The position numbers and the translations under genes are program-made. Below, piece by piece: positions 8,203 to 58,055 of a stretch of 64,000 nucleotides of DNA; position 1 is the first letter of the stretch, and every line of letters starts with the position of its first letter. Under the pieces are notes generated by a model. The model was given only the letters and a program-made list of their open reading frames with translations. It was not told the origin of the DNA and searched no databases. The stretch is from the NCBI GenBank assembly GCA_037447655.1, contig JBBHKE010002698.1, positions 62,001-126,000 of the forward strand, read 5' to 3'. This DNA comes from Zygnema cylindricum. Its lineage: Eukaryota > Streptophyta > Zygnematophyceae > Zygnematales > Zygnemataceae.

Positions 8203-11200
8203 CTAAACGGCGGCAGTTCCAGAAGAGAAATCTGGGTTTTCGCACCGATATTTTCCATCAGGTCCTATTCCAAAGCCCTTGGGGTCAGTAAAGACGTTCT
8301 CGAGGAGCTGTGACCTGACAGGTAAAGGACTTGCGTCAGCAAATTCCACAGCTTCTTCCACGACATCATCTACCTTCTTGTTGATGGCCTGCAAATCATA
8401 AAGATAAGAAAACAAAAAGAAGAAACGTAAAAATAGTAAGATTATGTCGCCAACTCTTGTTAGTGTGTCATGAACAAGTAAGAGAACAAATAAAAAAGAA
8501 ACATAACAAACGGTAAGGTTATCTGGTTAATCCTTGTTAGTAAGTAAAAAACTTCCACAGCTTCTTCCATTGCATCATCTGCCTTCTTGTTGACAGCCTT
8601 AAGAGAAAAGAAAAATAAGAACCAGCAAGAACATGGAAATGATTATTTCCTGCTTGATCTCTCTAATTCTGGACAAGTCCTACTAGTAGGATAATGGAAT
8701 CCATCAACTCCTTCATTTCTCTCTGATTACTTCCAGAAAAAACCGAAATTTAAAGGATTCCTACTTTATTTCACTCCATATTCTTGCTAGTAAAGAAGAA
8801 CTTAATATCCTACTTTACTCCTCTTCAATTTTTTGCAGTCAAAAATGAAACTGATGTATTCCAGCTTTATATCTCTCCACTTTCTTGTTTTGCTGTGTTT
8901 AAAGAAAGATAAACACAAATGACAAATTATATATTCCTACAAAAAGAAGTGGAGAAACACTTGATTCTGAAAAAGCAATCACAGCTGATCCAAGACTCTT
9001 ACCATGAAAAAAAACACTAAAAAAAGTATGTTCACACTGTTCATAGACACTGTTCATTCCTTTAGTGTTTTGAAATGACAGGGTGAACAAAGTTCTGATT
9101 AACACACTTAGTTCTGATTTACTGCCTATAAGAACTTCCGAGTAGATTAACGGTAACAAAAACATGGTTATCTATTTCGTTATCAAAACCCAGACAATTT
9201 CTAGTCATAAATGAGTAATGAGAGCACGTCATGTAGACATTACCATGGGCATTTCTTTAGCCTACAATTTAGCGCTCTGACATAATTTTTAAATCAAACC
9301 CAAGTTGGAAAACCTAGAGCTAGACCCAATAGCAACTGCCTATGGCTATCAGTTATAAACATTTTTCGCGCGAACAGCACTATTTCTCATCTTACGGATG
9401 TCCAATTCTCGATAGTAACCAGGATCAAAAGGTAGGAGTAGCATAATGGCTTGCCTCAGAAAAAAAACGGAACGGTCAACAACAGTTAAATTTATTGTGT
9501 GGCATATTTTTGACAGTTAGCGATGGGCAGTATAGCTTGTTCAAAAAGTCAAATTTAATAGTTTGCTACTTTGTCTCTCCAATTTCTTGCCAGTCAGATA
9601 TATCTCGCCAATTTTTTGTCATTAAGATAATAAATTTGAGCGATTCCTACTTTATTATCCCACTTTCTTGCTTGTAAGACATTAAATTGATTTTCACTTT
9701 GGACCAATACCTAAACTGCAGAGATTTATAAGTAATGTCCGAAAAGTTTTCCCACATCAAGATTACTGGAACAGAAAAGTGGAATTGAAAAAATAAATAC
9801 CTTCAATTCGGATTCTGTTGCCAATCCATTCTCCAGAAGATATTTCTTAAGAGCTTCAATAGGGTCTCTAGCCTGGTAGTGTTCCTTCTCAGCTGTCACA
9901 TACCAAAATACAGAAAACTTCCATTAGGAAAAACAAAAACTTAAGGGCACAGGTCAACAGAAAAAAAAAAAAACCTCCGAAAGAATCACAAACACAAATC
10001 ACATGACGATCATGAACTGATTGTTTCAAGTGTCTGATTGCTGGATCAACTAACCACAAACCAACAATAGAGCAAAAATACATCCAACATGCTCTTAATG
10101 TTGGACATTCAAGCAACAAATTTTCTCAACTATACACTGATGACATGAAAATTAAACCAGACCCTTTTTTACCATGATCACAGCTTTCAACCAGAATATC
10201 CAATAAGAAACTGAACAAATAATAAAAATTAAAGAGCTTGACATTTCCAACTTCAATCAATCAATTCACGTAACATCAGGCTACCCCTAGAAAATTTCAT
10301 CCGACAAATGCACCATGAAATCTAACACTGCAACTGTCAAAATTCAAGTTGAACCTTGTCAGCAATCACAACATTACTATTTACCTTTGTCACGGAGTTC
10401 ATCAGGGTCAGCAAGAGAGTGTCCTCGGAAACGGTAAGTCTCACACTCGATCAATGTGGGACCATCTCCTCTGCGAGCTCTAGCAATGGCTTCTTTTGCT
10501 ACTTTGTTAACTGCAAGTACATCCATTCCATCGACATGGACTCCAGGCATACCAAAGGCAGGTCCCTTCTTCCAAATTTCTGGAACGGAAGTGGCACGGA
10601 CATGACTCATTCCAATGGCCCACAAATTGTTTTCAACCACAAAGATCACTGGAAGCTTCCATAATGCTGCCATATTCAGGCATTCATAAAAGGCACCGTT
10701 GTTGCAGGTACCATCCCCAAAAAAGGCAACTGCGCAAACAATTTAAAAAGACATCCCAGTCAAAAACCAACAAAAAAAGAGTATCACCAAACATTGACAC
10801 CAGGAAAACGTAGTATTAATTAACTGAAACCAAGCGCCGAATAAAAATGATGATTCAATATGTGAATGGTTCTGTGAAAAAACATCAAAACCTTGCTGAA
10901 TGAACAGTATCCTGCCCACAAATCCACATTTTGACCTCCATTTGCTTTAAATATTCAAGCTACACACAAGCTCTTCAACCCTCAAATTTACAATCACAAT
11001 GGACTCCTTCCATTACCACAATGCACAATTCTGATCATTCCCTTTTAATATCTTTGAAAGCAACAACAAAATAAGTTATCAAACACCTCCTTTCCAAAAC
11101 CCAATTTCCTCCCTATACAGACAATTGCTTTTCAAAAATACCCAAAATCCCTTAATAGTTTCAAAACATATCAATTTTTAGTTTCCAGAAGTAACCAATT

Positions 11201-57200: not shown

Positions 57201-58055
57201 TTTATTTGTATCCAAAATTTAGTAGTGCGTATTTCTTCGCCTTTTTTTTTAAGTGATGAAATTTCCAATTATAACCACAAATTTATTCAACTGCCGCCTA
57301 AATATATCAAAACTTAACCGAAAACTATCGGTTGTAAGCCCGAAAAAATAAGAAAATTAAGAATACGGACACAGATTTTCGTCTCATGAATCGAATTTGT
57401 TTGTTCTATGTTCGATTACCGCTAAACCGAAAGCTAAGACTATACAATGTTGTTTAGAATGAGCTAAAAAACTTTACCATGAGTTTAAGAATTAATCCAA
57501 AACGGAGGAGAACCAAATATCAATAATAAATCTGAATCGTTGGATAGAACGGAATAGGAACCGCTGGAACCACAAAACCAAACACTAGAGGGAGGGAGGG
57601 AGGGGGAGGGGGGGAGGGGGGAAGAGGGAGAAGGAGAGGGAGAGGGAGAGATCAACACATGAATATTTCCGGCTCTATGTATTCTTATCTCTCCCTCTTT
57701 CTTCTTCCATCCTCTCCCTCTCTCCCTTCTCTCTCCCTCCCTCTCCCCCTCTTCCTCTCCCTCCTTTTCTCCCTAACTCTCTTCCTTTCCTTTCCTTCCC
57801 TTCCCTTGTAGGTTTTCCCTCGCCTGGTGGGCCTTTACCTTCCCTCTCAACGCCGTCTCCTGTGCCGCCCTTCTCTATGCGACGGTAACGGAAACGGCAT
57901 TCTCCGTTTTTCTCGCCGCTTTTTTGTCTTTTGTGGCGTCCTTGACGGTCATTTTTGTCACGGTGAGAACCTTCCTGGAAGTTGCCAAGGGGAACGTGTT
58001 CGTGGACGACCCGATCGTGGGGGAGTGTTGGGAGGGGAAGAGTGAGGGTTTATGA
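51244..58055 (+). CDS. SLAC1: SLAC1-type slow anion channel
   Basis: Plasma-membrane anion channel of the SLAC1/TehA family, which releases chloride, nitrate or malate; in seed plants SLAC1 drives guard-cell closure under ABA-activated kinases. Exons: 51244-52479, 53244-53451, 53972-54411, 54926-55273, 57111-57142, 57812-58055. They sum to 2508 nt and 835 aa, all in phase. Landmarks: PFLLRFSIVTFGICMGICSH (TM1), YRHPVRANFFFCPFIAALFL, VANPTTQIAIIGNFVGSKVS, FVTLYQRLPGSFPLP, FSLAWWAFTFPL. By alignment with Arabidopsis SLAC1 from memory, the gating Phe (F450) corresponds to F765 in WWAFTFPL. Exon 5 is only 32 nt. Oddities: a 412-residue first exon, over twice the usual N-terminus, with Glu/Arg-rich and Asn-rich low-complexity stretches; a Gly/Glu-rich insertion in the loop coded at 55148-55216; and a short C-terminus ending EGKSEGL. 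The start codon lies 24 bp after an assembly gap, so the true start is uncertain. Confidence 0.9.
51436..51575 (+). repeat. Translated GA-rich repeat in SLAC1 exon 1
   Basis: Purine-only text (gagagggaggaggagaggga type) reads in phase as an Glu/Arg/Gly-rich stretch. A second purine-rich block at 51899-52020 reads as further Arg/Glu repeats. No stop is introduced in the coding frame. Confidence 0.85.
51705..52110. promoter_or_regulatory. G-box/ABRE palindromes inside SLAC1 exon 1
   Basis: GCCACGTGGC at 51705-51714 and 52101-52110, plus the near matches ccacgtggc at 51798-51806 and gccacgtgtc at 51820-51829. All are in coding sequence. The same palindrome occurs three times in the divergent GST-like exon 1. 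A regulatory function is inference. Confidence 0.35.
53640..53965 (+). repeat. TTTC/TTCC simple-repeat array at the SLAC1 exon 3 acceptor
   Basis: About 320 bp of (tttc)n, (ctttt)n and (ttccc)n microsatellite runs up to tgcag|TTGTCAC at 53971/53972. The array takes the place of the polypyrimidine tract. Confidence 0.88.
54535..54925 (+). repeat. CT-rich tract with a copy of the SLAC1 exon 4 edge
   Basis: A 390-bp C/T-rich stretch fills the end of intron 3. Within it, 54733-54808 is a copy of the exon 4 acceptor and exon start: ttaactttgtcggctccgaa followed by gtctcctctctctgctgctt, against gtaactttgttggctccaaa followed by gtctcctctctctgcggttt in the exon at 54941-54985. Copy and exon are 188 bp apart. 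The copy has an in-frame TAA and a 1-nt offset, so it would not encode the channel if spliced. Confidence 0.83.
55148..55216 (+). repeat. Translated GGA/GGG repeat in a SLAC1 loop
   Basis: The sequence gggggagggggaggaggaga continues for about 69 bp in phase and codes for a Gly/Glu-rich stretch, between the helix ending AALAWSAI and the next one starting MDKFARGLFF. In other SLAC1 proteins this loop is short. A second, untranslated GA-rich tract begins right after the exon 4 donor (55274-55350). Confidence 0.82.
55394..55597 (+). repeat. 102-bp near-perfect tandem duplication in SLAC1 intron 4
   Basis: Unit 1 (55394-55495) and unit 2 (55496-55597) differ at only a few bases, for example gacaagtat/gataagtat and aaaacaatg/aaaaaaatg. 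This indicates a recent duplication. Confidence 0.92.
56160..56925 (+). repeat. GA-rich low-complexity blocks in SLAC1 intron 4
   Basis: Two purine-rich blocks, at 56160-56305 (gagggagagaagaagaggga type) and 56553-56925 (gagaggggagaggggagagg type), with a short ordinary stretch between. They are on the sense strand of the intron, with no coding signal. Confidence 0.8.
57588..57811 (+). repeat. GA tract followed by CT tract before SLAC1 exon 6
   Basis: Purine-rich 57588-57650 is followed by pyrimidine-rich 57688-57808, which runs straight into the exon 6 acceptor (ttgtag|GTTTTCC). The complementary composition could allow a hairpin in the pre-mRNA. Confidence 0.75.

Follow-up and report, generated by a model that had tools for sequence, protein, structure and literature searches.

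Genes and other features of the window

The window, which is the whole 64,000-nucleotide stretch of Zygnema cylindricum DNA that was analysed, holds nuclear genes with spliceosomal introns, five of which were modelled:

Reverse strand: plastid-type pyruvate dehydrogenase E1 alpha (PDH), matched by the protein P0001
Reverse strand: PF10294 lysine methyltransferase, recognized by Pfam
Reverse strand: GST, recognized by Pfam GST
Forward strand: ankyrin/BTB (ANK/BTB) protein, recognized by Pfam
Forward strand: SLAC1-type anion channel, recognized by Pfam SLAC1

Reading frames are continuous across the exon joins of the five models, with the exception of the methyltransferase first exon, which is out of frame as set. 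The PDH model is 98% identical to P0001 over 442 amino acids, and the joins at all five of its introns are identical in P0001, a protein encoded on a 1,668-base contig that is probably a transcript. Likewise, joins 3|4, 4|5, 5|6, and 6|7 of ANK/BTB are identical in P0121 (84% identity). Because these related proteins join alike, we treat the exon borders of PDH and of ANK/BTB (exons 3 to 7) as real. The GST, SLAC1, and methyltransferase borders were set from reading frame, GT/AG, and Pfam only; among them, the donors chosen for intron 1 of the methyltransferase and for intron 1 of SLAC1 represent best guesses that were retained in the counts. Also retained was a putative 32-nt micro-exon of SLAC1 (exon 5, 57111-57142), set to link the frames of exons 4 and 6. 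Those PDH relatives that are named among the 120 matches listed come mainly from land plants, together with the algae Closterium and Klebsormidium; an identifier containing 'Mesen1' among the listed matches we take to be Mesotaenium. These matches point to a streptophyte, probably an alga, as the source.

The window also contains features of other kinds. A 691-nt inverted repeat at 4450-5923, its arms 97% complementary and separated by a 92-nt spacer, looks like a large palindromic mobile element, and a second inverted pair of 99 nt lies at 5137-5235 and 5921-6019. By eye, a diverged relative is present near 15440-16220, where no inverted pair of at least 40 nt was found. A reading frame at 1-310 resembles, by eye, the terminal part (RNase H region) of a Ty1/copia-type polyprotein. 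A long forward-strand frame at 62240-63998, in which the frame seems by eye to change near 62440, resembles that of a glycoside hydrolase.

Copies of exon edges in adjacent introns

The initial annotation of this DNA had reported that, at seven junctions, near-tandem copies of the exon border and its splice site lie in the adjacent intron. Such copies were confirmed at all seven, each crossing the splice junction, and, when a net score of 5 or more was required on the far side of the junction, each of the seven reached the lowest available p value (1/201) in comparison with order-2 Markov versions of its intron. The copies are as follows:

11212..11492, reverse strand: PDH exon 3 donor (junction 11480|11481) and an intron 3 array of degenerate units of about 40 bp; the donor agrees with P0001
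11826-11893, reverse strand: intron 2 copy of the PDH exon 3 acceptor border (junction 11731|11732); 52/67 identical, AG kept
11940-11996, reverse strand: second intron 2 copy of the PDH exon 3 acceptor border; 42/62, AG lost
8549..8639, reverse strand: intron 5 copy of the PDH exon 6 acceptor border (junction 8388|8389); 70/93, 48 exonic nt, AG kept
46675..46732, reverse strand: intron 4 copy of the GST exon 4 donor (junction 46808|46809); 46/57, spanning the last 53 exon nt and the GT
38704..38806, forward strand: intron 3 copies of the ANK/BTB exon 4 acceptor border (junction 38841|38842); best 57/79, AG lost
42723-42757, forward strand: intron 6 copy of the ANK/BTB exon 7 acceptor border (junction 42953|42954); 30/34
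42800-42857, forward strand: second intron 6 copy of the ANK/BTB exon 7 acceptor border; 44/62
54682..54810, forward strand: intron 3 copy of the SLAC1 exon 4 acceptor border (junction 54925|54926); 97/128, 70 exonic nt, AG kept

Copies are roughly 70-90% identical, with blurred breakpoints, and the exonic stretch in the best copies at the seven junctions ranges from 12 to 70 nt. The best copy retains the AG at four of the five acceptors (PDH exon 3, PDH exon 6, ANK/BTB exon 7, and SLAC1 exon 4), that of ANK/BTB exon 4 having lost it, and the GT is retained at both donor cases (PDH exon 3 and GST exon 4). The weaker ANK/BTB exon 4 copy (38704-38727) consists of exonic sequence alone. Both ANK/BTB exon 7 copies sit within a longer decayed array of interior matches that extends, by eye, back to about 42490, and the surroundings of the SLAC1 exon 4 copy are pyrimidine-rich. 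The accompanying claim of copies that remain readable as protein is partly borne out: the acceptor copies of PDH exon 6 and PDH exon 3 are in frame throughout the copied part, whereas the frame of the GST copy is broken by two one-base indels (alignments by eye).

Two familiar arrangements were considered and set aside. Tandem or mutually exclusive exons do not describe these loci, where copies hold one exon edge and not a whole exon with both splice sites. Nor does intron gain by tandem duplication, since only one edge has been copied, inside an existing intron, and P0001 and P0121 show ordinary splicing of PDH and ANK/BTB.

Position, decoy sites, and background of the duplications

We compared all 52 junctions of 26 introns in the five genes, none of which was dropped from the intron-side tests, with points inside the same introns. 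For each junction, flanks of 40 bp per side were compared with up to 1 kb of the adjacent intron; alignments had to pass through the junction point, the best of them was scored, and p values were obtained from order-2 Markov versions of the same target. Evenly spaced interior points received the same treatment in both directions; 1130 were set up (N-containing flanks having been excluded beforehand), 94 were dropped for having less than 100 bp of target, and 1036 were tested. The search covered copies within one intron. Results are given by the net score on the far (exon) side, as requiring 4 on both sides misses the GST copy, whose similarity ends at the GT.

With a far-side net score of at least 5 and p ≤ 1/201, copies were detected at 8/52 junctions and 141/1036 interior points, a ratio of 1.14 (intron-block bootstrap 0.51-2.05) that reflects 26 introns only and interior points that, at 36 bp apart, are non-independent. 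With a far-side score of at least 8, the counts were 9/52 and 133/1036 (ratio 1.36, 0.64-2.54). Judged against same-intron rates, the probabilities of counts at least as high as those observed were 0.34 and 0.14, respectively. The eight junctions that passed at the lower threshold are the seven reported and the pyrimidine-rich SLAC1 exon 6 acceptor. At a minimum net score of 2 on either side of the point and p ≤ 1/301, a separate sample, for which 668 points were set up and 665 tested, gave 8/52 junctions, 50/363 intron points, and 18/250 intergenic points. At the scale of the window, copies were thus not clearly commoner at junctions than elsewhere in introns, the comparison on which the initial annotation had staked its reading. 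No clear junction preference is seen, although an excess of about two-fold is compatible with the 26 introns.

A looser setting (net score 2 per side, 200 shuffles) yielded 11/52 junctions and 132/1036 interior points (Fisher P = 0.09), with 5.99 junctions expected from same-intron rates (P = 0.02). For non-simple flanks, the counts were 8/49 and 93/896 (Fisher P = 0.23), with 3.70 expected from the same introns (P = 0.017). The 11 junctions are the seven reported and four others, namely the donors of PDH intron 1, methyltransferase intron 5, and SLAC1 intron 4 and the acceptor of GST intron 1, whose exon-side net scores are just 2-4; interior points could pass on equally low scores. A filter on 3-mer complexity gave no separation of junctions from interior points, with ratios of about 0.91-1.37 in the filtered subsets; most ratio estimates, filtered or not, exceed 1.

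These counts bear on the possibility that splice junctions are true hotspots, at which transcription or splicing would favour edge duplications through R-loops or nicks close to splice sites, for instance. Ratios above 1 at both thresholds (1.14-1.36), the excess over same-intron expectation in the looser test, with or without simple flanks, and the greater density of copies in introns (132/1036; 50/363) than in intergenic DNA (18/250) are all in its favour. However, both bootstrap intervals include 1, the departures from same-intron rates fade once exon-side scores of at least 5 or 8 are required, and the four extra junctions have only the low exon-side scores noted above. Moreover, exon conservation should prolong the detectability of junction copies and would thereby inflate the ratio. 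We therefore regard junction hotspots as unlikely, and a junction-specific mechanism is not shown by these comparisons.

The annotation had interpreted the copies as local tandem duplications that start at or span the junction. What stands is that many local direct duplications are present in introns, that some span junctions, and that most of those leave decoys resembling splice sites; a start at the junction, or a preference for it, is not supported by the comparisons with interior points (8/52 versus 141/1036, and 8/52 versus 50/363). It is quite improbable that exon edges in this lineage seed repeated local duplication, such that introns would grow outward from the splice sites and build rows of decoys, like the one at PDH exon 3, with the true site sheltered beside the exon.

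The sharpest single case is the PDH exon 3 donor, where the best unit of the intron 3 array is 38/51 identical. Decoy GT sites lie at 11434, 11392, 11349, 11313, 11292, 11251, and 11212, with unit steps of 46, 42, 43, 36, 21, 41, and 39 bp. The GT is kept in all seven nearest units, in a TCTG|GT context in five, and is lost in an eighth (11079); the units were found via a search for the donor motif, so this likeness is partly selected. Donor scores of these units are 3.7-8.2, versus 9.9 for the real site. Of those decoys that were compared with all intronic sites, two (11212 and 11850) fall in the top 2%. Such retention and such scores are what would be expected if some decoys were functional and the array had been retained as a set of alternative or regulatory 5′ splice sites. 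Set against this are the selection of units by motif, the unit without a GT, the use in P0001 of the first PDH exon 3 donor only, and the loss of AG from the ANK/BTB exon 4 decoy and from one PDH exon 3 acceptor decoy; on balance, we find functional decoys very unlikely.

Duplication is not confined to junctions. At a far-side score of at least 5, 18 of the 26 introns contain interior matches and eight contain junction matches, with seven containing both. Same-orientation copies at short distance are in excess over the orientation controls: among non-simple interior points, matches were found for 93/896 direct targets, 12/896 reversed targets, and 11/896 reverse complements. Without filtering, the corresponding counts were 132, 51, and 17 of 1036, indicating that simple sequence contributes. 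Copy spacing has a median of 92 bp, the middle half falling at 51-114 bp. That the copies are chance or low-complexity matches is hardly credible, for although the simple-sequence flag falls on three junctions, including that reported for SLAC1 exon 4, the SLAC1 exon 6 acceptor is pyrimidine-rich, and the reversed control rises to 51/1036 over all points, six of the seven reported junctions pass without this flag on their flanks and direct matches far outnumber both controls among non-simple points.

Within exons, copies are nearly absent. Only 1/205 exon-interior points passes, at 55207, where SLAC1 exon 4 is of low complexity, and exon-side copies were detected at 1/38 testable junctions (p ≤ 0.01; the purine-rich SLAC1 intron 4 donor), the remaining 14 of the 52 having less than 100 bp of exon target. 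Tandem Repeats Finder (period of at least 15) covered 11.1% of introns, 1.2% of exons, and 6.6% of other sequence, a class that may hide unannotated exons. Since direct copies dominate intron interiors and are near absent from exons, we conclude that short local duplication is general in this noncoding DNA; the near absence from exons is as purifying selection would give. The intergenic rate is lower than that of introns in the run that sampled both, and introns may be special in some way.

Two further stretches are described here for completeness. In SLAC1 exon 4, 55150-55215 is an in-frame, glycine-rich, low-complexity stretch of purine-rich repeats akin to those of the neighbouring introns. 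Intergenic positions 2600-3950 contain many decayed short repeats by eye, and one sampled point there (3150) was significant.

Origin of the copies and relation to known duplications

The explanation that we favour, and consider likely, is that a general process of local duplication acts anywhere in introns and that the spare edges produced when it spans a junction decay. Short direct duplications would accumulate in introns at any position, via a process such as replication slippage, unequal exchange, or repair synthesis. Where the duplicated segment spanned a junction, two edges would result, and the allele would be tolerated if splicing kept the outer edge, i.e., the original donor or the acceptor nearest the exon; the protein would be unchanged and the allele could drift to fixation. 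The spare edge and its splice site, now intronic and unselected, would then decay. We infer the mutational mechanism, the selective filter, the neutrality of the decoys, net intron growth, and the order of events from a sample of one window. Exon edges may also remain recognizable for longer than other duplicated sequence, which may be why a reader notices them first.

This explanation predicts slower divergence of the exonic parts, because there one of the two copies is held by selection and only the intronic copy drifts. In 14 pooled copies, chosen with weaker ones left out (e.g., the second PDH exon 3 acceptor copy), mismatches numbered 48/316 in exonic and 97/396 in intronic parts (Jukes-Cantor ratio 1.75; Fisher P = 0.003). 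The contrast lost its significance (44/257 versus 47/222; ratio 1.28; P = 0.29) when the seven units of PDH intron 3 were set aside.

Recurrent intragenic duplications able to include splice sites have reportedly been described in an earlier study. According to the available portion of PMC2671141, human short local duplications ('doublets' and repair-mediated proximal duplications) are in many cases intronic, and exons and intron splice sites are among the duplicated sequences, a table listing four partial exon/intron donors. The present copies resemble doublets in being short, local, and intronic, some with splice sites. They differ in spacing and form: doublet donor-acceptor pairs are on average 1.2 kb apart, were recognized with transposons as markers, and do not always share an orientation (PMC2671141, same portion), whereas the copies here have their median spacing of 92 bp, are direct, sometimes comprise several units, are more decayed, and occur at seven junctions in a 64-kb window. 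In potato RdRp, as presented in the accessible text of PMC4974935, a tandem duplication across an intron-exon boundary carried splice signals along and a new intron arose. Common to both cases are tandem duplication within genes and the crossing of a boundary; here, in contrast, the intron already existed, a single edge was copied, and a new intron was not seen. PMC3443670, to judge from its available sections, reviews intron gain by way of tandem duplication. In Drosophila, splice-site motifs are duplicated locally within genes, with intron positions differing between species through intron sliding or tandem duplication (PMC2891723, available part), and the local, intragenic, tandem duplication of splice-site motifs is shared with the present case.

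Junction-crossing duplications are already in print (PMC2671141 and PMC4974935, as excerpted), while a density of 7/52 junctions in 64 kb was not met in the literature searched. In the available text of CC-licensed PMC literature, neither splice-edge duplication as dense as this nor a multi-unit donor array was found described, which argues only weakly for their absence.

The donor array and the high background of duplication merit genome-wide attention. They also carry a warning for gene finders and RNA-seq aligners, since decoy edges, some readable as protein, adjoin the true exon. If the density holds genome-wide, short tandem duplication would contribute measurably to the intron sequence of this lineage, and exon edges, one copy of which is under protein selection, could serve as built-in clocks.
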